A stretch of 24,960 nucleotides of DNA. It comes from a virus. The stretch covers positions 455 through 25,414 of the IMG/VR virus record IMGVR_UViG_3300037847_005195; one strand, 5' to 3'. Each line of letters opens with the position of its first letter. The stretch's first letter is position 1. The notes under the pieces were generated by a model. That model saw only the letters and a list, made by a program, of their open reading frames with translations. It was not told the DNA's origin and made no database searches. The position numbers were made by a program, and so were the translations under genes. Below, in pieces: positions 3,791 to 15,154 of the stretch.

Positions 3791-4545
3791 AGTCCAGTAA
3801 AGAAATTGTATGCTCCGTTCAAATAGTCAAACGCCTCAATGCCCCACTCGACCTTGTGCAGAGGCCACTTCTTGACGTGCATCTGGGCAGTCTCGCAGTC
3901 GAAAATAACACTGTAGCAGTCAATGTCGCAAAGCTCGAAGCCCCACTCCTCGGCTATTATGTCTGCCTCCACCGCAAGCTGGCACAAGTCAGTCTCGTAG
4001 CTCTTCTTTCGTGGATCTCCTTGACGAAACTTAAAGTCCATCAGCACTGGCTTGTCGTCACGCTCTCCGATAAAATCGATCATGCCTGCCACCCTGCGTT
4101 CAGTGTCGATAACCGAATGCTCCACAAGTTGAGGGTAAATCCCAAGGGCGTCTATCCAAACAAGGAATGGCTGGTAGAAGTGGCGGTACTCGCTATGGTA
4201 GTCTGCCCCTAGCATACGCTGGTTAATCGCCTCCTCCATTTCTGCGTGTAGCTTTGTCCCAAACTCTGATGAGGTTATTTCGCTTCCATCAAGGTCGGTG
4301 CGGTAGCCCCACAGTCTTTCTCTAAGCTTGTCCTCTGTGTCCTCGGGAAACTCCCTAGCCAAGTGGACCAGCTTACGCTCACGCCATTCGTTAATATCAA
4401 AGCCACGCAGTTGCCTAGGGAACAGTGACAGGACGGTGGTCACGCTCTTAACGCAGTTGCCGTGACCTCGTGCCTTGGCAATTGTGTCGATGCTCTTCAG
4501 CAGCTTCACCTTGCCGTTCTTTTGCTGTGTATAGAAGTGACTCAT
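3787..4545 (-). CDS. PD-(D/E)XK exonuclease, RecB/Cas4-like
   Basis: A 252-residue protein with a RecB-type nuclease core: H100 in the helix FGTKLHAEMEEA, E142 in LVEHSV, D157 in AGMIDFIG, the D170-x-K172 strand VLMDFKF, and the Q-containing helix ETDLCQLAVEA (Q189). This spacing matches phage single-strand or 5'-3' exonucleases of the PD-(D/E)XK superfamily used in recombination or host DNA breakdown. All expected metal and catalytic residues are present. The gene overlaps both neighbours by 4 bp (an unknown protein upstream, the Pif1-like helicase downstream), so it belongs to a coupled replication/recombination block. Confidence 0.85.
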   Translation of the reverse strand: MSHFYTQQKNGKVKLLKSIDTIAKARGHGNCVKSVTTVLSLFPRQLRGFDINEWRERKLVHLAREFPEDTEDKLRERLWGYRTDLDGSEITSSEFGTKLHAEMEEAINQRMLGADYHSEYRHFYQPFLVWIDALGIYPQLVEHSVIDTERRVAGMIDFIGERDDKPVLMDFKFRQGDPRKKSYETDLCQLAVEADIIAEEWGFELCDIDCYSVIFDCETAQMHVKKWPLHKVEWGIEAFDYLNGAYNFFTGL

Positions 4546-5167: not shown

Positions 5168-5811
5168 AATTCCATTAAAAAGTTGGTCGCCACTTTGCCA
5201 TGCTCAACTACTCCGCACCCGATAGCGGGGTGAGGCCCATATTTACCGTAGGCCATTGCATACGAGTCTTTGTCGATCCCGTTGCCCACTTGCATTCCAA
5301 ACACTTTGCACTTGGCTCCCGTGTGCCACTGAACGTAGCACTCTGAGTGCCAGTGACCTTGGACCACGCTCTGCATATTTTGCTTGGCTCGCTGAATAGC
5401 CTTTTTCCCGTCCCCGTGACAGTAAACCACGTTGTCGATACAGACCGACTCAACGAATTTCCAACCAGGTGCCTCGAACATTTCGTTATAGTCCCTGACC
5501 CACCTTTTGGATATGCCAGCACTGTACGCCTTGCGGTGTACCAGCCGGTCGTGGTTGCCAATACAAACGTGTGCCTGGGGGAACGCCTTGTACCATTTCT
5601 GGATCTCGGAGATCGCCCTGTCTAGCTCCTCACCTGCACTGAAACCATCGGGGTCTGTCTCATGATATGATGAATAATGATTATCGACGCAGTCTCCAAT
5701 AAACACCACTTGGTTGCAGCCCATCTTGCGATCCACGTTTTTACAGAACCGCAAGTATTTCTTGAGGGTAAATGGGCAATGCAAGTCCCCTACTACCAAT
5801 ACCTTAGCCAT
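5164..5811 (-). CDS. calcineurin-like metallophosphoesterase
   Basis: A 215-residue protein with every binuclear-metal motif of the family in order: GDLHCP (8-13), GDCVDN (39-44), GNHDRL (85-90), CHGD (131-134) and GHWHSE (152-157). These enzymes hydrolyse phosphomono- or diesters; phage members include nucleases, protein phosphatases and nucleotide phosphatases, and the substrate here cannot be inferred. It is a compact single-domain protein with no signal peptide, so probably cytoplasmic. It overlaps the small upstream gene by 8 bp and the DUF1599-like gene downstream by 4 bp; that neighbourhood makes a nucleotide or nucleic-acid substrate plausible. Confidence 0.9.
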   Translation of the reverse strand: MAKVLVVGDLHCPFTLKKYLRFCKNVDRKMGCNQVVFIGDCVDNHYSSYHETDPDGFSAGEELDRAISEIQKWYKAFPQAHVCIGNHDRLVHRKAYSAGISKRWVRDYNEMFEAPGWKFVESVCIDNVVYCHGDGKKAIQRAKQNMQSVVQGHWHSECYVQWHTGAKCKVFGMQVGNGIDKDSYAMAYGKYGPHPAIGCGVVEHGKVATNFLMEL

Positions 5812-6507: not shown

Positions 6508-6887
6508 AGTTGCCCCCGCTCCATGTTCTTAACCGCCCTCTCCGCTGCCAGCATCTTAATCGTCTCCAGGTCCATCTCAATGTTAGCCGCCTCGAACACG
6601 CTTACAGCCAACGCCTCCAGGAACCCAATGATATACTGTGTGTCAGGCATAGAGCCACGCTCTGGCGGTTCCTGTCTGTTGCCATCCTGGTCTACATAAG
6701 CGGGAGCAGGGACTTCTGTGTAGGCCATTGTGCCGTCCTCTTTGGTTGCCGTGTACTCGGTCCACCAATTAGCCTCGTCGCCAACCTTGTGCTGGCCTGG
6801 GTCAATCATCTTAATCAAGACCCGATCTCCTTGTTCAGTTAGGCAATCTGCCCACTGCCCTTGTATTGTTTTTATTGTCGCTTTCAT
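6504..6887 (-). CDS. hypothetical protein (127 aa)
   Basis: No recognised family. The N-terminal ~60 residues look like a small beta domain (ATIKTIQGQWADC ... DRVLIKMIDPG ... NWWTEYTA). A proline-rich, charged linker (PAPAYVDQDGNRQEPPERGS) and a C-terminal helical segment follow (IIGFLEALAVSVFEA ... IKMLAAERAVKNM). It overlaps the sigma-like gene by 4 bp downstream and a small unknown gene by 4 bp upstream. The strict ATGA couplings support it as a genuine gene. Confidence 0.7.
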   Translation of the reverse strand: MKATIKTIQGQWADCLTEQGDRVLIKMIDPGQHKVGDEANWWTEYTATKEDGTMAYTEVPAPAYVDQDGNRQEPPERGSMPDTQYIIGFLEALAVSVFEAANIEMDLETIKMLAAERAVKNMERGQL

Positions 6888-7084
6888 CGTAATTCGCTTA
6901 TGCCTAGCAGGTAGTCGTCACTGCCAAATGGCTCCAGTTCAATTTCAATTCTTCGTTCAACGTAGTCACCAATGTCATGGATCTGCTCGTCACTGCAGCA
7001 CCTCTCGATAGCCTCCTCGATTACCGTCACAAGGATCTCGACCTCCTCCTCATCTGTTGGGTTTATCAGTCTTACGAAATCCAT
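6884..7084 (-). CDS. hypothetical protein (66 aa, acidic)
   Basis: Very acidic small protein (EEEVEILVTVIEEAIERC, then DYVERRIEIELEPFGSDDY), predicted to be largely helical. Acidic small phage proteins sometimes act as DNA mimics or bind host proteins, but nothing specific supports that here. It overlaps the upstream gene by 13 bp and the downstream gene by 4 bp. Confidence 0.65.
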   Translation of the reverse strand: MDFVRLINPTDEEEVEILVTVIEEAIERCCSDEQIHDIGDYVERRIEIELEPFGSDDYLLGISELR

Positions 7085-8890: not shown

Positions 8891-9218
8891 GAGTGGGTCC
8901 ACTCCCTTCTTTTGGCTCATAGATGGCCCTGAGATCGTCGAAAAACGTCCCGATGGTTGTCCTGGCCTCCATTGTGCGGTGCAGCCTTTCGTTGTCATCT
9001 TCGCGGTCTTCGACCTGAGAGCGACCAGCATCTTTACCCTTCTCGAAGCTTTCCTTCAAATCGAAGGGGAGCTGCTCGTTTCGTATCCGTCTAAGGTCCC
9101 TCTGGACTACCGACAAAATCATGTCGGTCGAATTGCCCCCGTCATTGAGGGCGATATCCTGCCTAGCGTCTTTTATGTCCCTGGCAAGTTGAGACAATGC
9201 TATTTCAGTTTGTGTCAT
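8883..9218 (-). CDS. hypothetical helical protein next to endolysin (111 aa)
   Basis: Highly charged and mostly helical: ALSQLARDIKDARQDIAL at the start, then RDLRRIRNEQLPFDLKESFE, and a Glu/Arg-rich stretch (VEDREDDNERLHRTMEARTT) with coiled-coil character. There is no signal peptide, lipobox or membrane segment, so it is not a classical Rz/Rz1 spanin. It sits between the lysozyme-like gene (39-bp gap) and the 30-residue membrane peptide (8-bp overlap); a lysis-related role is only positional inference. Confidence 0.6.
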   Translation of the reverse strand: MTQTEIALSQLARDIKDARQDIALNDGGNSTDMILSVVQRDLRRIRNEQLPFDLKESFEKGKDAGRSQVEDREDDNERLHRTMEARTTIGTFFDDLRAIYEPKEGSGPTHG

Positions 9219-9257
9219 ATATTTTTTGAATTATGCCTCTACCTTAACCAGTAAAAG

Positions 9258-9614
9258 CTAGTTGTCAAACTCTTTCTTAACTTTCTCCCAGTAGGGCAAA
9301 GTTGAATCCTTGTAGGCTCCTCGCGGGCCTCCGTTGTGGGTTCTCGCAATGAACTCTTCGCGAGACATGCCCTTAGGCCGCCTGGAATTGCCGCAATAGC
9401 GTTCCACGTAAGCAGCGAATATCTCCACCGCCTTGAAGGGGTCGAACGCATCCTCGTGCGTCCAGTTTTCCCCAGACCACTCAGCCGCATCCTGCACATA
9501 GGCAGAATGCAACTGGAGAATTCCAAAGGCTAGGCCGTTGTCTCCGACCGCCCCAGGATTTCCTTCTGACTCGACCGCAATCAATGCGGTTAACAATAAT
9601 ATCCAATCAATCAT
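9258..9614 (-). CDS. endolysin: lysozyme-like / lytic transglycosylase (SLT fold)
   Basis: A 118-residue compact muramidase-fold protein. ALIAVESEGNPGAVGDNGLA followed by FGILQLH is the catalytic-Glu motif of SLT/goose-type enzymes (Glu in AVESEG, then the G-x-x-Q-L strand); it is followed by AVEIFAAYVERYC, and HNGGPRGAY provides the second conserved block. Such enzymes cut the MurNAc-GlcNAc bond of peptidoglycan. The N-terminus (MIDWILLLTALIAV) is hydrophobic but coincides with the first helix of the fold, so it need not be a signal anchor. It heads a three-gene group with a helical protein and a membrane peptide, so host lysis is the likely role. Confidence 0.85.
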   Translation of the reverse strand: MIDWILLLTALIAVESEGNPGAVGDNGLAFGILQLHSAYVQDAAEWSGENWTHEDAFDPFKAVEIFAAYVERYCGNSRRPKGMSREEFIARTHNGGPRGAYKDSTLPYWEKVKKEFDN

Positions 9615-9645
9615 TTTTTATTAGTTCGTTAGTGGTTACACCCCG

Positions 9646-9679
9646 AAACCCCGCACTTCTGAGGTGCAGGGCAGGGTTT
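9646..9679 (-). terminator. imperfect hairpin between the 81-aa gene and endolysin
   Basis: On the minus strand AAACC pairs with GGTTT outside and GCAC with GTGC inside, closing a loop of CTCAGAA. It lies in the 83-base gap before the endolysin gene. There is no strong U-tract, so it may be an attenuator or mRNA-stabilising stem that lowers endolysin expression relative to the genes upstream. Confidence 0.45.
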
Positions 9680-9697
9680 GGTTTTATCTGTTATCAA

Positions 9698-9943
9698 TCA
9701 TTTGTCTCCTTTCGGTTCAAATTTGAGGGAGTGTATTGCGGGAGACCCGTAATAGGTCCCTATCTCTGCGGTGACTTCACGGCCCTCCGAGCTGCTGCTG
9801 AGGGCGTAAGCATGCATGCTGTCTGGTAACGTTCTACATGTCCAGCCGTCAATTTTCATTATCCACCTGGGATTCCCGTGCCTTGAGCTTGGGAGCCTTT
9901 TCAGGTTGGTTATCTTGCCCTTGTGTCTTGTTATATTTTTCAT
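9698..9943 (-). CDS. hypothetical protein (81 aa, basic N-terminus)
   Basis: No recognised family. The first 25 residues are strongly basic (KNITRHKGKITNLKRLPSSR), followed by a beta-rich part with WIMKIDGWTCRTLPD and the end EIGTYYGSPAIHSLKFE. The start overlaps the upstream gene by 4 bp (ATGA). An AAAGGAG just before its stop is followed by ATGATTGAT, but that frame closes after five codons. Confidence 0.65.
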   Translation of the reverse strand: MKNITRHKGKITNLKRLPSSRHGNPRWIMKIDGWTCRTLPDSMHAYALSSSSEGREVTAEIGTYYGSPAIHSLKFEPKGDK

Positions 9944-10380
9944 TCTGCTGCTTCTCTAACTTCGTTGGTTATGGTTTCTGGATCTTCGTAAACCGAGCGG
10001 TACGCCCGAAAGAATTTATCCGTTGCTTTGTGATGGGCGTAGTATCCCGTGATCTCTCCGCTGAGCCTCTCTGACATTGAGAAGAACTCAACGCCGTTGA
10101 GAGTGTGCCAGCATCGAGGCGGCAAGACATTGAGCTGTTCGTCAAATTCGTCCTGGCTGGACAGCTCCCAGTCTTTGCAATATTTCGCTCGTTGTGCTGC
10201 AACTACCTGGTTTGTCGCGTCATTCAGTTCAAAGATTTGAGTTCCTAGGTATTTTTCTTTAAGTTCAGGAACCGTTTTCCCTGAATACCGGCAGACAAGC
10301 TGCCCGCCCTCGTTTTTGAGAAGGGTCGCTATGCCAGTCGTGTGCGGCCGGTAAAGAACCAATTCTATTTCAGTTGTCAT
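9940..10380 (-). CDS. hypothetical protein (146 aa)
   Basis: Start chosen at ATG 10380 (MTTEIELVLYRPH), which lies in the short gap after the upstream gene; a longer frame would run through that gene. Features: a beta N-terminus (TTEIELVLYRPHTTGIATLL), a central helical part with CKDWELSSQDEFDEQLNVLP, and a C-terminal part WHTLNGVEFFSMSERLSG followed by Tyr/Phe-rich helices. No domain recognised. It is coupled to the downstream gene by an ATGA overlap. Confidence 0.65.
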   Translation of the reverse strand: MTTEIELVLYRPHTTGIATLLKNEGGQLVCRYSGKTVPELKEKYLGTQIFELNDATNQVVAAQRAKYCKDWELSSQDEFDEQLNVLPPRCWHTLNGVEFFSMSERLSGEITGYYAHHKATDKFFRAYRSVYEDPETITNEVREAAE

Positions 10381-10400
10381 ATTGTCGTTAGGGTTAAGGG

Positions 10401-10694
10401 TTAATCCATTAATGGCGAAACGGGACCTCCTTCGGGGAAGAGCATTATCAGACCAATGTCTGAACACTCTCCGTAGTATCCCGAAACTTCACACTTTCTC
10501 CAGGCGGTGCATTCAGTTAGCTCAGCCCAGTGGGCAGAGGCAGCTCCCTGCCTTTTCGCACTAGCAAAAGCCTCATTTTCGAAGGCTAGAATTTCCTCGG
10601 ACTCCGTAGTGCTGAGTCCCGTAGCATCACCGTTTATCAGATAGGGCAGAAAGTCTCGCCCTATGGTGTATTCGAATAGATCAGTTTTTCTCAT
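10401..10694 (-). CDS. hypothetical protein (97 aa)
   Basis: The N-terminus (FEYTIGRDFLPYLINGDATG, then LSTTESEEI) and the C-terminal CEVSGYYGECSDI segment resemble small uncharacterised proteins common on plasmids and phages, where a DFLPYLINGD-like helix is followed by a C-x(6)-C strand. Role unknown. An unusual TTGACA-containing element lies 20-50 bp upstream. There is no Shine-Dalgarno sequence before the ATG. Confidence 0.7.
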   Translation of the reverse strand: MRKTDLFEYTIGRDFLPYLINGDATGLSTTESEEILAFENEAFASAKRQGAASAHWAELTECTAWRKCEVSGYYGECSDIGLIMLFPEGGPVSPLMD

Positions 10695-10714
10695 ATATTT
10701 GTCGTTGTTATTTG

Positions 10715-10743
10715 GTTCAATCAGAGTTTTCTCTAAATGTCAA
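10715..10743 (-). promoter_or_regulatory. TTGACA-N16-ATTGAAC element (weak promoter candidate)
   Basis: A perfect -35-like TTGACA (10738-10743) is followed by 16 bases and ATTGAAC, directly upstream of the gene starting at 10694. The same arrangement occurs at 11441-11469 and 12431-12460. No TATAAT-like -10 is present, so host sigma-70 would use it weakly unless helped. Confidence 0.35.
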
Positions 10744-10760
10744 TAGCTATTTTTGCAAAC

Positions 10761-10970
10761 TCAATAATACGTTTTAATTCTTTCTACGAAAAGCTTCGGA
10801 TCAGGGTCTCCCACTTCCTCCGTAATTCTCCTATAGACGGTTTTAACCGCTTGATCCCTAGTAAATCCTCCCGAGTATATCTTGTGGGATTCGCACCTAG
10901 CGGTAAACATTATCACTTTTTGCAAGGGGCAAGGCTCCTTGTCGCGTTCCACCGTTACATAATAAGTCAT
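10761..10970 (-). CDS. hypothetical protein (69 aa)
   Basis: Small basic protein (MTYYVTVERDKEPCPLQKVI, later TRDQAVKTVYRRITEEVG) of unknown function, with a beta start and a helical second half. ATG at 10970 is preceded by AACGAAAGGATAAAGCA, a Shine-Dalgarno-type leader shared with several other small genes in this unit. Confidence 0.65.
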   Translation of the reverse strand: MTYYVTVERDKEPCPLQKVIMFTARCESHKIYSGGFTRDQAVKTVYRRITEEVGDPDPKLFVERIKTYY

Positions 10971-10994
10971 TGCTTTATCCTTTCGTTTTTCTAG

Positions 10995-11216
10995 TTAATT
11001 CAAAAAAGTTCGCCGGTCTGCAAGTGGCTTAAATATCTGGACCGCTTCTTCGACGGAGAAAAACGCTCCCAACGCACCTTGTTCGGGATTCCGCTCATCA
11101 GTGACTTTGAACTTCGTGACCCCAGAGGGGGTCTTAAACTCCTCGATAATAAAAGTGGGGAGAGTTCGCTTGCGACCGAACTGCCCTCCGGTTTTCGTGT
11201 AATTTATTTCCTGCAT
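10995..11216 (-). CDS. hypothetical protein (73 aa)
   Basis: Basic N-terminus (YTKTGGQFGRKRTLPTF), then strands IIEEFKTPSGVTKFKVTD and a helix SVEEAVQIFKPLADRR. It resembles small single-domain proteins of plasmid and phage accessory regions, but no named family is recognised. Gaps to neighbours are about 20 bp and contain no recognisable promoter. Confidence 0.6.
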   Translation of the reverse strand: MQEINYTKTGGQFGRKRTLPTFIIEEFKTPSGVTKFKVTDERNPEQGALGAFFSVEEAVQIFKPLADRRTFLN

Positions 11217-11236
11217 AATACTGTTATAGATTTGAA

Positions 11237-11431
11237 TTATCGCTCAACACTTTCGGCTTCTTCGACCCATTGGGCGAGTGTCAACTGATTGAGATATGCA
11301 ACCCAAACCGTCGAATTGTCAATGCTGTAACCGCTTTGGGCGTCAACGAAGTGAAAGCATCCGGCTCCCCGTCGACCTTCGACCTTTAGGCCGGTGTGTT
11401 TGATTGCTGAATTGATCGTTGACTTTTTCAT
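11237..11431 (-). CDS. hypothetical protein (64 aa)
   Basis: Begins MKKSTINSAIKHTGLKVEGR and contains GAGCFHFVDAQSGYSIDNST followed by VWVAYLNQLTLAQWVEEAE. This pattern is familiar from small uncharacterised accessory proteins of phages and plasmids; function unknown. It is preceded by a TTGACA-N16-ATTGGAC element (11441-11469) and then by a hammerhead ribozyme. Confidence 0.7.
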   Translation of the reverse strand: MKKSTINSAIKHTGLKVEGRRGAGCFHFVDAQSGYSIDNSTVWVAYLNQLTLAQWVEEAESVER

Positions 11432-11440
11432 AGAATGCTA

Positions 11441-11469
11441 GTCCAATCAGAAAAATTTAAGTTTGTCAA
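11441..11469 (-). promoter_or_regulatory. TTGACA-N16-ATTGGAC element (weak promoter candidate)
   Basis: TTGACA (11464-11469), 16 bases, then ATTGGACTAG, ending ten bases before the ATG at 11431. It is placed between a hammerhead ribozyme and the next gene, so it could restart transcription after RNA cleavage. It lacks a good -10 box. Confidence 0.35.
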
Positions 11470-11489
11470 TAGTTATCTTAAATTAATTT

Positions 11490-11548
11490 GGTTTGTCTCA
11501 TCAGTTACCAGGTAACCGTCCTGGCAAGACCCCTTACGGGGTTTCAAC
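11490..11548 (-). ncRNA. type II hammerhead ribozyme, copy 1 (overlaps gene 3' end)
   Basis: On the minus strand: GTT, GAAA core, stem III CCCC-GTAA-GGGG (GNRA loop), the GTC cleavage triplet (11530-11528), stem I TTGCCAGG/CCTGGTAA, CTGATGA core (11504-11498), then GAC (11497-11495) to pair with GTT as a three-pair stem II including one G-U. Predicted scission lies between 11528 and 11527. The loop of stem I contains GGTT, which can pair with AACC at 11493-11490. The upstream gene's last codons run into the ribozyme and its TAA stop lies within the GTAA loop. Confidence 0.85.
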
Positions 11549-12400
11549 TATGTCAATAAGCTTTGGCCGCTTATAGAAAGCGAACTTACTATCATCAGGG
11601 GCGGGACTAAAGGTGGCCCTTATCTCAATCCGGTCGCCCCTTTCGGCGGCAGCCCCAGAGGGGACCGTGCCCCAGCATTTACGACCGTCATCGAGCTGAA
11701 TAAGGCATTTCAACGACCTGCCCCAGTCGCTTTCGACGCTTTTAAGGCTCAATATTTTGCCCTCGATTTCGTAGCGACCGCTCTCCCAATCCGGTGCATT
11801 TTTCCGCATTGCTTCATCCGCTTCTTTTCGAGCCTTAATCTTGGCCTCTTTCTCGGGAGACTCCTCAACTATTTTGCGAACGAAAGCGATCTGCTTCCGG
11901 CTCAAGCTGAAATACCTAGACAGTTTGCGAAGCATGTCTTCCGCGATCCCCCGCTCCCAACTTCCAACTGCTTCGTTATTGCAGGCAGCCTCCAGGAAAC
12001 TGATAACCGGCTTCCACCTCCAGGACCGCCTCATGGCTTTTCGAAGACCACTGATATAAAGGCGGTTTTCCTTGTGAGCGGCGATTATCTCGCTCGCAGA
12101 CTCGAATTCGAGCCTGTTAACACAGGTGCTGCCTATAACGACATGCTCCCCGCTTGGCTCGTGTTCAAAAACCGCCCCTGCCTTGAGGGCAGCCCCGCAA
12201 TGGGTGCAGTGATCAATGCTATATCCTTCCGATTGAACGGCCCGCTGCAGATATGGAGGCAGTGGGTCAATAGGGTCCCCGCCCCCGCCATCTTCGTCAT
12301 CGCTGGCATAAATAACGCGATGATCGAAAGCCTCGATAAAATTATAAGCCTGGGGATCGAACCCCCCGCTTAGTCGATGCTTTGAAATTTTTAAATCCAT
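11534..12400 (-). CDS. hypothetical zinc-finger protein (288 aa)
   Basis: N-terminal third: an acidic, Gly-rich stretch, then a C4-like zinc motif, HCTHCGAALK near residue 65 and a second arm VVIGSTCVNRL near residue 92, an arrangement found in uncharacterised actinophage and plasmid proteins. The middle (residues ~100-205) is helical with a Lys/Glu-rich stretch (EKEAKIKARKEADEAMRK). The C-terminal ~75 residues look like a small OB-type beta barrel (LIQLDDGRKCWGTVPSG, GDRIEIRATF). Nucleic-acid binding is plausible. ATG at 12400 has an AACGAAAGGA leader. The C-terminal residues VETP and the stop are encoded by hammerhead copy 1. Confidence 0.75.
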   Translation of the reverse strand: MDLKISKHRLSGGFDPQAYNFIEAFDHRVIYASDDEDGGGGDPIDPLPPYLQRAVQSEGYSIDHCTHCGAALKAGAVFEHEPSGEHVVIGSTCVNRLEFESASEIIAAHKENRLYISGLRKAMRRSWRWKPVISFLEAACNNEAVGSWERGIAEDMLRKLSRYFSLSRKQIAFVRKIVEESPEKEAKIKARKEADEAMRKNAPDWESGRYEIEGKILSLKSVESDWGRSLKCLIQLDDGRKCWGTVPSGAAAERGDRIEIRATFSPAPDDSKFAFYKRPKLIDIVETP

Positions 12401-12430
12401 AATTTAGTATCCTTTCGTTATCTTTGACTA

Positions 12431-12460
12431 GTCTAATAAGAGAAAACGGGCAATTGTCAA
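12431..12460 (-). promoter_or_regulatory. TTGACA-N17-ATTAGAC element (weak promoter candidate)
   Basis: TTGACA (12455-12460) overlaps the TGA stop of the upstream gene and is followed after 17 bases by ATTAGACTAG, close to the 11441 element (ATTGGACTAG). It occupies the one gap in this stretch of genes where no hammerhead is found. No convincing -10 hexamer. Confidence 0.35.
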
Positions 12461-12675
12461 GCTTTATTCCCTAGACGAATAATTTCCTTTTCAATTTCCT
12501 CAGCCTGCTTTGCTCTTCTGCGAGCAAATTCTTTTAGGGTCTCCTTTTCAGGATCGAAACTTTCTTCCGGCAAAATTTGCTTTGCAACTTCGCTTTCGTT
12601 TCCGAGAAGGCGGCCTAGCAATGCCAGCTCCCTAATCGTAAATCCAGTCCAGGTTTTTGTTTCGAGAATGTTCAT
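12457..12675 (-). CDS. hypothetical protein (72 aa, charged helical)
   Basis: ATG at 12675 (MNILETKTWTG) has a leader AACGAAAGGAAAAGAA with a Shine-Dalgarno-like AAAGGA. The longer frame beginning at 12714 was rejected because its start is the ATG inside the hammerhead CTGATGA core. The protein has a short ELALLGRLLG segment and a long charged helix (KETLKEFARRRAKQAEEIEK). No family recognised. Confidence 0.7.
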   Translation of the reverse strand: MNILETKTWTGFTIRELALLGRLLGNESEVAKQILPEESFDPEKETLKEFARRRAKQAEEIEKEIIRLGNKA

Positions 12676-12701
12676 TTCTTTTCCTTTCGTTATCGTTAAT
12701 T

Positions 12702-12763
12702 TAGCCTGTCTCATCAGCCACCAGAAGGCTACCCTGGCAGGACCCCCTTGCGGGGGTTTCGAC
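12702..12763 (-). ncRNA. type II hammerhead ribozyme, copy 2
   Basis: Minus strand order: GTC (12763-12761), GAAA, stem III CCCCC-GCAA-GGGGG, cleavage triplet GTC (12743-12741), stem I CTGCCAGGG/TTCTGGTGG with loop TAGCC, CTGATGA core (12717-12711), GAC (12710-12708). Stem II is GAC/GTC. Scission is predicted between 12741 and 12740. The loop TAGCC is complementary to GGCTA at 12706-12702; both sides differ from the other copies in a compensating way. It begins two bases after the stop of the 116-residue gene. Confidence 0.9.
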
Positions 12764-12764
12764 T

Positions 12765-13115
12765 TTAATAATCGAGACCGTGCTCAGCATCGTATCTCTC
12801 ACGAGCGGCCATATGAGGCTCTTCGATTCCGTAAGCGCGAGAACCATAACGTGGTGGAACGCTTATCCAATGCTCAACGTTGATCACTAGCTTCTCGTTA
12901 ACTCGATCGGCAAGTTTCTGAGCTTCTTCCTCGGTATCGTAAGGTTTAAAGTGACCCATGCGAGATCCATCAGACTCTTCACCAATCACGAAGTATTTCT
13001 CTCCGTAAGTGTGACCCTCTGGGTTTCCTGGCTCGGCATTTTCTGGGTTGCTCCAAAGTACAACCACTTGCGGTCGAACAAAAGCGAATTCGATTTTTTG
13101 TTCTGTGCTGGTCAT
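12765..13115 (-). CDS. hypothetical protein (116 aa)
   Basis: The segments KYFVIGEESDGSRMGHFKPY and DTEEEAQKLADRVN, then HWISVPPRYGSRAYG, recall small accessory proteins of plasmids and phages in which a beta hairpin is followed by an EEAQxxADR helix; function unknown. ATG at 13115 is preceded by AACGAAAGGAGACAATACCA, with a good AAAGGAG Shine-Dalgarno sequence. The gene is flanked by a hammerhead ribozyme on each side. Confidence 0.7.
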   Translation of the reverse strand: MTSTEQKIEFAFVRPQVVVLWSNPENAEPGNPEGHTYGEKYFVIGEESDGSRMGHFKPYDTEEEAQKLADRVNEKLVINVEHWISVPPRYGSRAYGIEEPHMAARERYDAEHGLDY

Positions 13116-13145
13116 TGGTATTGTCTCCTTTCGTTGTCGTTAATT

Positions 13146-13206
13146 TGGCTTATCTCATCAGTCGCTGGTAGCCATCTCAGCGAGACCCCCTTGCGGGGGT
13201 TTCGAT
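13146..13206 (-). ncRNA. type II hammerhead ribozyme, copy 3
   Basis: Minus strand order: ATC (13206-13204), GAAA, stem III CCCCC-GCAA-GGGGG, cleavage triplet GTC (13186-13184), stem I TCGCTG/CAGCGA with a larger ten-base loop, CTGATGA core (13161-13155), GAT (13154-13152). Stem II is GAT/ATC, a compensatory change relative to GAC/GTC. Scission is predicted between 13184 and 13183. Loop bases TGGCT pair with AGCCA at 13150-13146. The ribozyme starts on the last base of the TAA stop of the 58-residue gene. Confidence 0.9.
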
Positions 13207-13382
13207 TATCGACCCGACTCGATCAAAAGTTCTTCGAAAGCGTCGATGAACGCATCAGCCGCACCCTCTAAAGAATAACCGAGACCCTCAATGGGATTTG
13301 GATCGAACCCTTCAATATCGAATTCGTCATCGAAATCATTTTCGATAAATTCGCCCGTTGTGTTTTCTGTTAAACCGCTCAT
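13206..13382 (-). CDS. hypothetical protein (58 aa, very acidic)
   Basis: ATG at 13382 (MSGLTENTTGEF) has the leader AACGAAAGGAAAAACA; the longer frame from 13430 would begin within the hammerhead core and is rejected. The product is strongly acidic (IENDFDDEFDIEGFDPNP) with a C-terminal helix (DAFIDAFEELLIESG). Function unknown; an acidic decoy or host-protein-binding peptide is possible but unsupported. Flanked by hammerhead ribozymes. Confidence 0.65.
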   Translation of the reverse strand: MSGLTENTTGEFIENDFDDEFDIEGFDPNPIEGLGYSLEGAADAFIDAFEELLIESGR

Positions 13383-13410
13383 TGTGTTTTTCCTTTCGTT
13401 GTCGTTAACT

Positions 13411-13472
13411 TGGCTTATCTCATCAGTCACCAGGGAGCCACCCTAATGAGACCCCCTTTCGGGGGTTTCGAT
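13411..13472 (-). ncRNA. type II hammerhead ribozyme, copy 4
   Basis: Minus strand order: ATC (13472-13470), GAAA, stem III CCCCC-GAAA-GGGGG, cleavage triplet GTC (13452-13450), nine-pair stem I TCATTAGGG/CCCTGGTGA with loop TGGCT, CTGATGA core (13426-13420), GAT (13419-13417). Stem II is GAT/ATC. Scission is predicted between 13450 and 13449. TGGCT in the loop pairs with AGCCA at 13415-13411. It begins one base after the TAA stop of the 105-residue gene. Confidence 0.92.
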
Positions 13473-13473
13473 T

Positions 13474-13791
13474 TTAAAGGTCGTTATAAAAAGCGAGAAC
13501 AGTTTCCTTGTCATAAAAATCATACGACCAACCATGCTGTTCCAAAACGGATGCAAGCTTCTCGTTTAAAACGCAATCTACCTGGTAAACCTCCCAATCT
13601 TCGAAGTCGTTTGACCCATTTTTGTTGATCTTCCATTGACCGGTCAAATCTTCCCCCAGGAAAGAGTAGCCGGTAAACCAAATCCCCTGGCGGTCATCTC
13701 CATAGAATTCGGCCTGGGTTTTCATCTCCAAATTAGGGTCGATCTCCCTGAGCTTTTTAATCATTGTTTCGGTTTTTTTAATCTGTCTCAT
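13474..13791 (-). CDS. hypothetical protein (105 aa)
   Basis: ATG at 13791 places the start about 31 bases after hammerhead copy 5, the same distance as for neighbouring genes; an internal ATG at 13764 is the alternative. Beta-rich middle (IWFTGYSFLGEDLTGQWKIN) and helical C-terminus (KLASVLEQHGWSYDFYDKET). No family recognised. Its first codons ATGAGACAG echo the ribozyme sequence (CTG)ATGAGACAG, possibly by chance. Confidence 0.65.
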   Translation of the reverse strand: MRQIKKTETMIKKLREIDPNLEMKTQAEFYGDDRQGIWFTGYSFLGEDLTGQWKINKNGSNDFEDWEVYQVDCVLNEKLASVLEQHGWSYDFYDKETVLAFYNDL

Positions 13792-13815
13792 AATCTTGTC
13801 GTTTTGTCGTTAATT

Positions 13816-13875
13816 TGGCTTGTCTCATCAGTTACCAGGGAGCCACCCTGATAAGACCCCTTGCGGGGTTTCGAC
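13816..13875 (-). ncRNA. type II hammerhead ribozyme, copy 5
   Basis: Minus strand order: GTC (13875-13873), GAAA, stem III CCCC-GCAA-GGGG, cleavage triplet GTC (13857-13855), nine-pair stem I TTATCAGGG/CCCTGGTAA with loop TGGCT, CTGATGA core (13831-13825), GAC (13824-13822). Stem II is GAC/GTC. Scission is predicted between 13855 and 13854. The loop can pair with AGCCA at 13820-13816. It begins one base after the stop of the 80-residue gene. Confidence 0.92.
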
Positions 13876-13876
13876 G

Positions 13877-14119
13877 TTACAATTCAGAGGCCCAGCCATC
13901 AAAGGCATCCGTTTTAATGCCAAACCTGCAGCCATCCTCGTCAATGACCCATTCGACAGGCTCATCAGCGGAATAAGGGTGGCTAAGCCACGGTTCGCCC
14001 GTTCTGACAATTTTGCAATCGAAATCGAAACCGCCCAGGTAATGAGTGAATTCGTAGGTTTTGCCCTCGTATTCAATGGTTTTTGGGCCGCTGTTTTTGA
14101 TGTCTTCTATTGAGATCAT
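13877..14119 (-). CDS. hypothetical protein (80 aa)
   Basis: ATG at 14119 (MISIEDIKNSG) was chosen; the longer frame to 14176 would include hammerhead copy 6. Beta-rich small protein with TIEYEGKTYEFTHYLGGFDF and WVIDEDGCRFGIKTDAFDGW. No family recognised. The leader AACGACAACAGAAAGAATACCA is a variant of the AACGAAAGGA leader of its neighbours. Flanked by hammerhead ribozymes. Confidence 0.65.
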   Translation of the reverse strand: MISIEDIKNSGPKTIEYEGKTYEFTHYLGGFDFDCKIVRTGEPWLSHPYSADEPVEWVIDEDGCRFGIKTDAFDGWASEL

Positions 14120-14145
14120 TGGTATTCTTTCTGTTGTCGTTAACT

Positions 14146-14205
14146 TGGCTTGTCTCATCAGCTGCCAGGGAGCCACCCTGACAGGACGCTTTTCAGCGTT
14201 TCGAC
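14146..14205 (-). ncRNA. type II hammerhead ribozyme, copy 6
   Basis: Minus strand order: GTC (14205-14203), GAAA, stem III CGCT-GAAA-AGCG, cleavage triplet GTC (14187-14185), nine-pair stem I CTGTCAGGG/CCCTGGCAG with loop TGGCT, CTGATGA core (14161-14155), GAC (14154-14152). Stem III has a wholly different sequence from the C/G-only stems of the other copies yet keeps pairing and a GNRA loop. Scission is predicted between 14185 and 14184. The loop pairs with AGCCA at 14150-14146. It directly follows the TGA of the kinase gene. Confidence 0.92.
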
Positions 14206-14898
14206 TCAGTCGTTGTCAATTATCCTGACCAAATCAGCCTGCCCTCTGATGGCCTCGAATGAGGCAGCAATGGTAGCATGTTTCGACCGTACAATTGATT
14301 CCGGCACGGTGCGGGTTCTGTCCTGGTTCCGCTGCAGGGCGGTAGCTAAGGAGCATCGAACCATGACAATTTCCACCTTAAAACCGGCCTGCCGTGCCTG
14401 ACTCATCAAAGCCTGGTATTTGGCCGCATTGCTGCCAGTGCCGTCATAGACGAATGACCGAGTGCCAGCAATGGCCTCGAAAAATTGCTTCTGCAGCCGC
14501 TGCCGGCTTTCCTCATGAACCGCCATTGGGTTTTTGGGGTCGTATCCTGGCAAGGTTCGCTTGATCCGGTCGCAATCCAGAACGGTCTCAATCTGGATAT
14601 CCCGCTTTCTAACGTAACTTTTCCCGCTGCCAGGGCCGCCCATAAGGAAGACCGCCCTCGATGCTCTCCCCCTTCTGACCTCAGCCATTTGGGGGCGGCT
14701 TTGAAAGTTAACGCATACCAGGATTGCCCAGATAGCCATCAAAGGGGAGAAGGCGGCCGCTGCTAGACTGTGGTCGTCCAGCAACTCGATAAGAAAAGAG
14801 GTCCATAAAAACCCCTGAAACGCTACCAGGATGGCAGCGGTCAAAACCAGCCCCGTTACCAGGGCGGCGATCGTTTTTGTTGTCGTCGTGTTTTTCAT
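14206..14898 (-). CDS. membrane-anchored P-loop kinase (AAA_33 / zeta-toxin-like)
   Basis: A 230-residue protein. Two N-terminal membrane segments (TIAALVTGLVLTAAILVAFQ, about residues 9-28, and AAAFSPLMAIWAILVCVNF, about 47-65) precede a cytoplasmic kinase domain with Walker A GGPGSGKS (about 87-94), an aspartate after a beta strand (VLDCDRIKRTLPG), the FVYDGTGS strand typical of zeta-toxin and polynucleotide-kinase-like AAA_33 proteins, and an Arg-rich lid (RNQDRTRTVPESI). It should transfer phosphate from ATP to a nucleotide, sugar-nucleotide or RNA end. First gene of the leftward unit, just behind the promoter at 14909-14936, hence probably early. A 5'-OH kinase acting on ribozyme products is a speculative possibility. 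Confidence 0.75.
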   Translation of the reverse strand: MKNTTTTKTIAALVTGLVLTAAILVAFQGFLWTSFLIELLDDHSLAAAAFSPLMAIWAILVCVNFQSRPQMAEVRRGRASRAVFLMGGPGSGKSYVRKRDIQIETVLDCDRIKRTLPGYDPKNPMAVHEESRQRLQKQFFEAIAGTRSFVYDGTGSNAAKYQALMSQARQAGFKVEIVMVRCSLATALQRNQDRTRTVPESIVRSKHATIAASFEAIRGQADLVRIIDND

Positions 14899-14908
14899 AA
14901 ATGCCTAA

Positions 14909-14936
14909 ATTATACGGGGCAGAAAAACGCTGTCAA
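14909..14936 (-). promoter_or_regulatory. sigma-70 promoter for the leftward unit
   Basis: Minus strand TTGACA (14931-14936), 16-base spacer, perfect TATAAT (14909-14914). The start would be near 14902, only a few bases before the ATG at 14898, so RNA from this promoter would be nearly leaderless for the kinase gene. It is the evident source of the RNA carrying the hammerhead series. Confidence 0.85.
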
Positions 14937-15022
14937 ATCTATTTTTCGAAAATCGTTACCGGGGGCAGCAAACAATGGCAGCCTTACCAGGTAGCAGGCA
15001 ACGGCAACAGCTTATCAGGTGA

Positions 15023-15083
15023 CCCCCTGCAGATGCTCACACCATGATAGCAGCAGGGGGGGTGGATGACGGGGGGAGGGGGG
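15023..15083. repeat. inverted repeat with adjoining G-runs
   Basis: CCCCCTGC (15023-15030) and GCAGGGGG (15053-15060) form an eight-pair stem, with TGCT/AGCA possible inside the loop. The right arm merges into three G-runs on the + strand (7 G at 15056-15062, 6 at 15071-15076, 6 at 15078-15083), enough guanines for a G-quadruplex. It lies in the non-coding divergent region, between the two leftward promoters. It may be a terminator, attenuator or replication-related structure. Confidence 0.5.
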
Positions 15084-15154
15084 CTATTTGATCGGTGCGA
15101 GACGATATGGTACCTATCACTCACACACTCAACGGCTTACAAATAGTCGTGTTT

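Follow-up and report, generated by a model that had tools for sequence, protein, structure and literature searches.

The gene array and its hammerhead elements

The stretch of viral DNA analysed here (the window) is 24,960 nucleotides (nt) long, corresponds to positions 455 to 25,414 of the record IMGVR_UViG_3300037847_005195, and supplies the numbering for all coordinates that are not assigned to another record. It comes from a tailed phage, and its genes include those for a large terminase subunit, a head-tail connector, the major head protein and a helicase of the Dda-like type. The subject of this study is a minus-strand array of seven genes and six small RNA elements, HH1 to HH6, for which the sequence analysis supports an identification as pseudoknotted type II hammerhead ribozymes. 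At the head of the array is a perfect promoter of the sigma-70 type, TTGACA-16-TATAAT (14909..14936). Gene 1 (14206..14898) encodes a P-loop kinase-like protein of 230 amino acids (aa) of the AAA_33/Zeta_toxin type (PF13671, 8.4e-16; PF06414, 4.4e-15). It is followed by open reading frames (ORFs) that have no assigned function, namely gene 2 (13877..14119, 80 aa, no Pfam or PHROG match), gene 3 (13474..13791, 105 aa), gene 4 (13206..13382, 58 aa, with an AAAGGA leader), gene 5 (12765..13115, 116 aa) and gene 6 (12457..12675, 72 aa). Gene 7 (11534..12400, 288 aa) encodes a phage protein, also without assigned function (phrog_18425, 5.5e-19). Two further promoter-like sites are found on the same strand, TTGACA-N18-TTAGACTA between genes 6 and 7 (12429..12460) and TTGACA-N17-TTGGACTA after HH6 (11439..11469).

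An initial annotation, made from the letters alone, had placed six minus-strand type II hammerheads in this region, and an Rfam covariance search confirmed all of them, three above and three below the gathering score. When cmscan was run over the complete window with gathering thresholds, it returned three minus-strand matches to RF02276 (Hammerhead_II), at 12700-12764, 13143-13207 and 13408-13473. When 3.8 kb were compared with all 4227 Rfam families at E<=1, exactly six RF02276 matches were obtained, with E-values from 3.4e-7 to 2.5e-3. Relative to the RF02276 gathering threshold of 37 bits, HH5 (12700..12764, 45 bits), HH4 (13143..13207, 41.4 bits) and HH3 (13408..13473, 39.5 bits) score above, and HH1 (14144..14206, 34.8 bits, E 1.6e-4), HH2 (13813..13876, 34.4 bits) and HH6 (11487..11549, 30.2 bits, E 2.5e-3) score below. 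All positions of the model are matched by each of the six; apart from the scores, the elements differ from it in stem II, which has 3 base pairs (bp) here and 2 in the model. The same six, and no seventh, were recovered when the 38,807-base virus record was searched whole with RF02276, and 14 control genomes gave zero hammerhead matches. A strict structural search, requiring the core, at least 5 bp in stem III, 6 in stem I, 3 in stem II and 4 in the pseudoknot, found six elements on the minus strand, none on the plus strand and none in 200 Markov surrogates. The mean identity among the six copies is 0.76, and they are therefore no assembly duplicate. Cleavage is predicted at H17, after C14185 (HH1), C13855 (HH2), C13450 (HH3), C13184 (HH4), C12741 (HH5) and C11528 (HH6), in agreement with the positions first proposed.

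Fold and covariation of the elements

Read along the minus strand, each element consists of one strand of stem II, GAAA, a stem III hairpin with a GNRA loop, GUC, a stem I hairpin, CUGAUGA and the other strand of stem II. The catalytic core, CUGAUGA plus GAAA in this permuted order, is intact in 6/6, as is the NUH cleavage triplet, which is GUC throughout. Stems I and III are closed by loops and stem II is open. The three pairs of stem II change together among the copies (GUC/GAC, AUC/GAU in HH3, GUU/GAC), and stem I of HH4 is shorter, at 6 bp. In addition, loop I pairs with the 3' tail that follows stem II, forming a pseudoknot of 4-5 bp in every element. Its two strands show compensatory changes, being UGGCU/AGCCA in four copies (HH1 and HH2 among them), UAGCC/GGCUA in HH5 and GGUU/AACC in HH6. 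With the pseudoknot included, 97% of the cells in the six-element structure are paired and 10 pairs are altered on both sides, a result reached by none of 500 shuffles, and slid controls gave 33-48% paired; every helix shows covariation, as does the pseudoknot. By free-energy folding the minimum for HH1 is the exact hammerhead, while the minima for HH4 and HH5 are nested otherwise, under an energy model that is unable to include the pseudoknot.

The pattern extends to elements elsewhere. Among 141 related elements (129 distinct), 97.7% of the cells in the nested stems are paired, and 688 double changes were counted as compared to 202 in shuffles, in an alignment that was fitted to the model. 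A pairing between loop I and the tail that spans at least 4 bp is present in 106 out of 113 distinct relatives, as compared to 68 with swapped tails, a number that is biased because part of the tail was preset by the search pattern.

These data bear on the idea that the resemblance to hammerheads is superficial and that the elements act as intrinsic terminators or RNase III sites. The stem III hairpins are GC-rich, and a plus-strand scan labels two of them terminator-like. However, the coding strand has no U-run after stem III, the plus-strand calls have only GTTTC, and CUGAUGA, GAAA and a co-varying pseudoknot are unnecessary for a terminator; we find this explanation scarcely credible. A retrozyme or viroid-like circular RNA was also considered and rejected, since the units between the ribozymes are different protein-coding frames of unequal length and not one non-coding unit.

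Position at gene junctions in the window and in other phages

HH1 to HH5 start 0-2 nt from a stop codon, and their predicted cuts fall 21-24 nt past that stop and 63-68 nt before the next start codon. HH6 overlaps its gene: the stop TAA of ORF 11534-12400 lies within the GTAA (GUAA) tetraloop of stem III, and the predicted cut falls 6 nt after the stop and 96 nt before the next start. The description of the elements as following six of seven successive stop codons thus holds for HH1 to HH5 and fails for HH6. That the ribozymes lie between genes was also correctly noted, but the region is not one plain operon, as it contains promoter-like sites (12460-12429, 11469-11439) as well as ribozymes. 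The junction of genes 6 and 7 has no ribozyme and carries the first of these sites instead, for which 0 matches arose in 100 shuffles. Both sites, one after gene 6 and one after HH6, have the form TTGACA-N(17-18)-TTRGACTA; none is expected by chance, and they resemble a second promoter class of the phage with an unusual -10 element. A shared leader pattern, searched for in viral contigs, gave two matches, which is about the chance level. Leader accessibility, computed before and after cleavage, was higher after it for most leaders, a result given no weight because the removal of upstream sequence always favours a rise and the computed cut fell one base too early.

The arrangement is not confined to this phage and recurs in phages unrelated to it. 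The exact core plus pseudoknot-tail pattern was found in at least 119 stretches of viral contigs, but 257 Gb of genomes from bacteria and archaea yielded 4. One match (L007) that Rfam missed had on that ground been suspected to be chance, a suspicion overturned by model R1, which gives a good hammerhead with a UGGUU/AACCA pseudoknot. Eleven of 36 viral records searched whole have three or more hammerheads, two of the eleven (G024 and G030) apparently holding the same array. At E<=0.001, 20 hammerheads were counted in G031, a record of 112 kb, and 11 in G034, a record of 55 kb; BLAST of these two long arrays against phage records gave no match, nor did array DNA match plasmids. Seven Streptomyces phages (R4, Paedore, phiELB20, Jevington, Paolo, Alvy and Spernnie) contain 9-14 hammerheads each, and arrays of 9-12 copies occur in phages of three Arquatrovirinae genera, Arequatrovirus, Caelumvirus and Sentinelvirus. 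No ribozyme is annotated in the Streptomyces phage stretches examined. In eight arrays, 78 of 80 elements lie at a gene junction, between two open frames. Likewise, of 98 distinct elements drawn from many contigs, 95 have a stop codon upstream (median gap 1 nt) and a start codon downstream, as compared to 47% of random positions.

A stop codon that adjoins or lies inside the ribozyme means that ribosome occupancy must influence folding. The elements could accordingly be regulators, with cleavage switched by ligand, salt or terminating ribosomes so as to set the expression of each early gene, and regulated cleavage is deemed possible for phage hammerheads by Perreault et al. 2011 (PMC3088659). 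Nevertheless, there is no ligand-sized insert or conserved extra domain, the loops being small tetraloops and pseudoknots, and unrelated genes are served by the same element. We judge a regulatory switch quite unlikely.

The distribution also speaks to whether the elements might be repeats, degenerate or selfish, that have no function at present. Near siblings without elements, and leaders that are alike within the array, would fit such repeats. Yet every core base and the compensated pairs are kept in 6/6, and arrays of 9-12 copies, strictly placed at junctions, recur in the three Arquatrovirinae genera, which makes this reading very improbable. As to the siblings themselves, the large terminase subunit is related to terminases of Burkholderia, Erwinia and Vibrio phages at about 33% identity, and is found at 85-99% identity in fifteen viral contigs. 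The sibling L008, with a terminase 99% identical, aligns on either side of window 9006-15107 and has 1.7 kb of other DNA between. One sibling (L014/L024) carries a single hammerhead, 3' of a stop codon; absence of hammerheads from siblings means little because many of them are short fragments.

Gene-specific conservation was also tried, and the viral contigs held no relative of gene 3 and single relatives of genes 5 and 7. From three cases, which are no survey, the ribozyme seems to belong to the junction and not to the gene. R4 and phiELB20 are 97-98% identical in this part of their genomes, and one additional gene, followed by a ribozyme, is present in phiELB20; the gene that comes next lies, in R4, directly behind the same promoter region, without a ribozyme. 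The relative of gene 5, in contig L023, has a TTGACA promoter-like region upstream and no ribozyme, the model search being negative as well. The relative of gene 7, in contig L170, has terminator-like hairpins before and after it in place of ribozymes. Such a pattern is expected if the ribozyme serves to separate neighbours and does not go with the gene itself.

Active ribozymes might instead confer a recombinational benefit, the hammerhead repeats at gene ends serving as patches of homology that shuffle accessory cassettes, with cleavage as a by-product. Consistent with this, elements are more alike within an array than between arrays (for the window, identity 0.76 as compared to 0.61), and alignments between Streptomyces phages often break at ribozyme ends. 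However, breaks at gene ends would meet ribozymes anyway, and the clean difference between R4 and phiELB20 occurs without a ribozyme copy on both sides. Moreover, it is pairing that is maintained, by compensatory change, and not identical sequence; changes that preserve pairs point to selection on RNA folding. We therefore regard the recombinational account as unlikely.

Several other features of these arrays were recorded. In R4, the annotated genes gp81, gp75.1 and gp67.1 overlap hammerheads (1579-1869, 3898-3999 and 6855-6947 of NC_019414.1 43403-51071), and owing to this overlap the gp81 start is probably wrong and gp75.1 and gp67.1 are probably not genes. Back-to-back pairs of hammerheads, 1-3 nt apart, occur in Jevington (PP978834 49528-49663), Alvy (MN234208 51395-51528) and Spernnie (MT701594 45572-45700). 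One member of each pair has a 7-bp pseudoknot, UGGGCAG/CUGCCCA, and double cleavage would free an RNA of about 65-70 nt. An Ocr-like antirestriction gene lies 3' of a hammerhead in R4-type phages (5260-5325 of the same R4 stretch; Paedore 46901-46966), which may be compared with the antirestriction gene ardA beside hammerheads in Perreault et al. 2011 (PMC3088659). Finally, about 1.1 kb past the last hammerhead of the G036 array, an Rfam tmRNA match of very compact form (61.6 bits) lies at 5475-5576 of contig L154.

A proposed punctuation of the early transcript

We propose that the six hammerheads probably punctuate an early phage transcript, cutting a polycistronic mRNA into insulated one-gene messages. 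Leftward RNA from the promoter at 14936-14909 would fold at each junction while emerging and would cut itself 6-24 nt past the upstream stop codon. When a hammerhead cuts, the upstream RNA is left with a 2',3'-cyclic phosphate and the downstream RNA with a 5'-OH. Such termini are poorly attacked by 3' exonucleases that depend on a 3'-OH, and also by RNase E, an enzyme that recognises a 5'-monophosphate. The upstream message would end in the stem III hairpin with its cyclic phosphate, and the downstream message would begin with the 5'-OH and the hairpin of stem I, after which would come a short, A-rich leader that has a ribosome-binding site of its own. The products would be one-gene mRNAs with defined, probably nuclease-resistant ends, free of translational coupling, and small accessory genes could therefore be gained, lost or exchanged while the genes beside them stay unaffected.

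The sequence, fold, covariation and position of the elements are direct observations, as is, in three comparisons, their tie to the junction and not to the gene. Cleavage in vivo, and the stability and insulation of its products, are what we infer from this arrangement, and insulated, stable single-gene mRNAs are favoured because of the expected end chemistry and results with synthetic insulators. RiboJ, a man-made part, was derived from a plant satellite RNA hammerhead. In E. coli it raises transcript twofold on average and protein two- to tenfold (PMC6206723), and most such insulator parts cleave there with an efficiency of 0.84-0.94 (PMC7536230). RiboJ-type insulators resemble the phage elements in that self-cleavage ahead of a ribosome-binding site yields a defined 5' leader with a hairpin, but they are placed after promoters and not after stop codons.

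Several observations weigh against the proposal. Half of the elements (3/6) score under the Rfam gathering cut-off. The sibling L008 lacks the array region and any hammerhead, and the array is therefore dispensable for the lineage. The cut at HH6 is not needed for a separate downstream mRNA, because a promoter-like site follows HH6. In addition, the 5' portion of the ribozyme would be masked by any ribosome that stands at the stop codon, and cleavage may therefore be incomplete.

Gene 1 itself has a hydrophobic N-terminal stretch before its kinase-like P-loop domain, and its ATG lies about 10 nt past the -10 hexamer (window 14206-14936), so its mRNA may be nearly leaderless. The kinase-like domain suggested a phage polynucleotide kinase that repairs 5'-OH ends, a candidate that was rejected: phrog_505 matched only 2 of 20 searched records (array-bearing and ribozyme-free), and is therefore not associated with arrays.

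The initial annotation had regarded a per-gene processing array as undescribed, a claim of novelty that is too strong. Perreault et al. 2011 (PMC3088659) had already reported clusters of type II hammerheads with a pseudoknot around single prophage genes and had proposed single-gene mRNAs. According to that paper, three tandem phage arrangements cleave in vitro, one triple also does so in E. coli, and fast cleavage needs the pseudoknot. Those clusters, such as the Agrobacterium triple around ardA, share with the present array the type II fold, the loop I/3'-tail pseudoknot and same-strand copies flanking single phage genes. They differ in number, the present array having six copies and related arrays as many as 20, and neither stop-codon abutment nor dependence on interior genes is stated in the available text. 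The same source describes HHphage of haloviruses HF1/HF2, which likewise lies immediately upstream of an early viral gene, a 5' end having been mapped no more than 3 nt from its cleavage site. HHphage, however, occurs singly, its core is a variant one and the virus is archaeal. A 2017 review (PMC6155905) leaves the role of prokaryotic hammerheads open and notes a link with phages and small unconserved ORFs. In the open-access literature no paper was found on Streptomyces phage or long hammerhead arrays, a weak absence, as subscription papers lie mostly outside it. Set against the accessible portion of the 2011 paper, what appears new is that such arrays are common in viral contigs, are long (up to about 20 copies) and follow a rule of stop-codon abutment.

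It is possible, though we advance it tentatively, that tailed phages in general use hammerhead arrays to punctuate their genes, a system in which a ribozyme set against the previous stop codon precedes the interior genes of early accessory operons. If so, every gene would be an insulated, swappable mRNA unit, and the arrays would be a natural counterpart of synthetic ribozyme insulators. The stop-codon rule at interior junctions, together with long arrays in laboratory phages, Streptomyces phage R4 among them, makes it directly testable whether ribozymes, and not RNases or terminators, define the ends of phage mRNAs.

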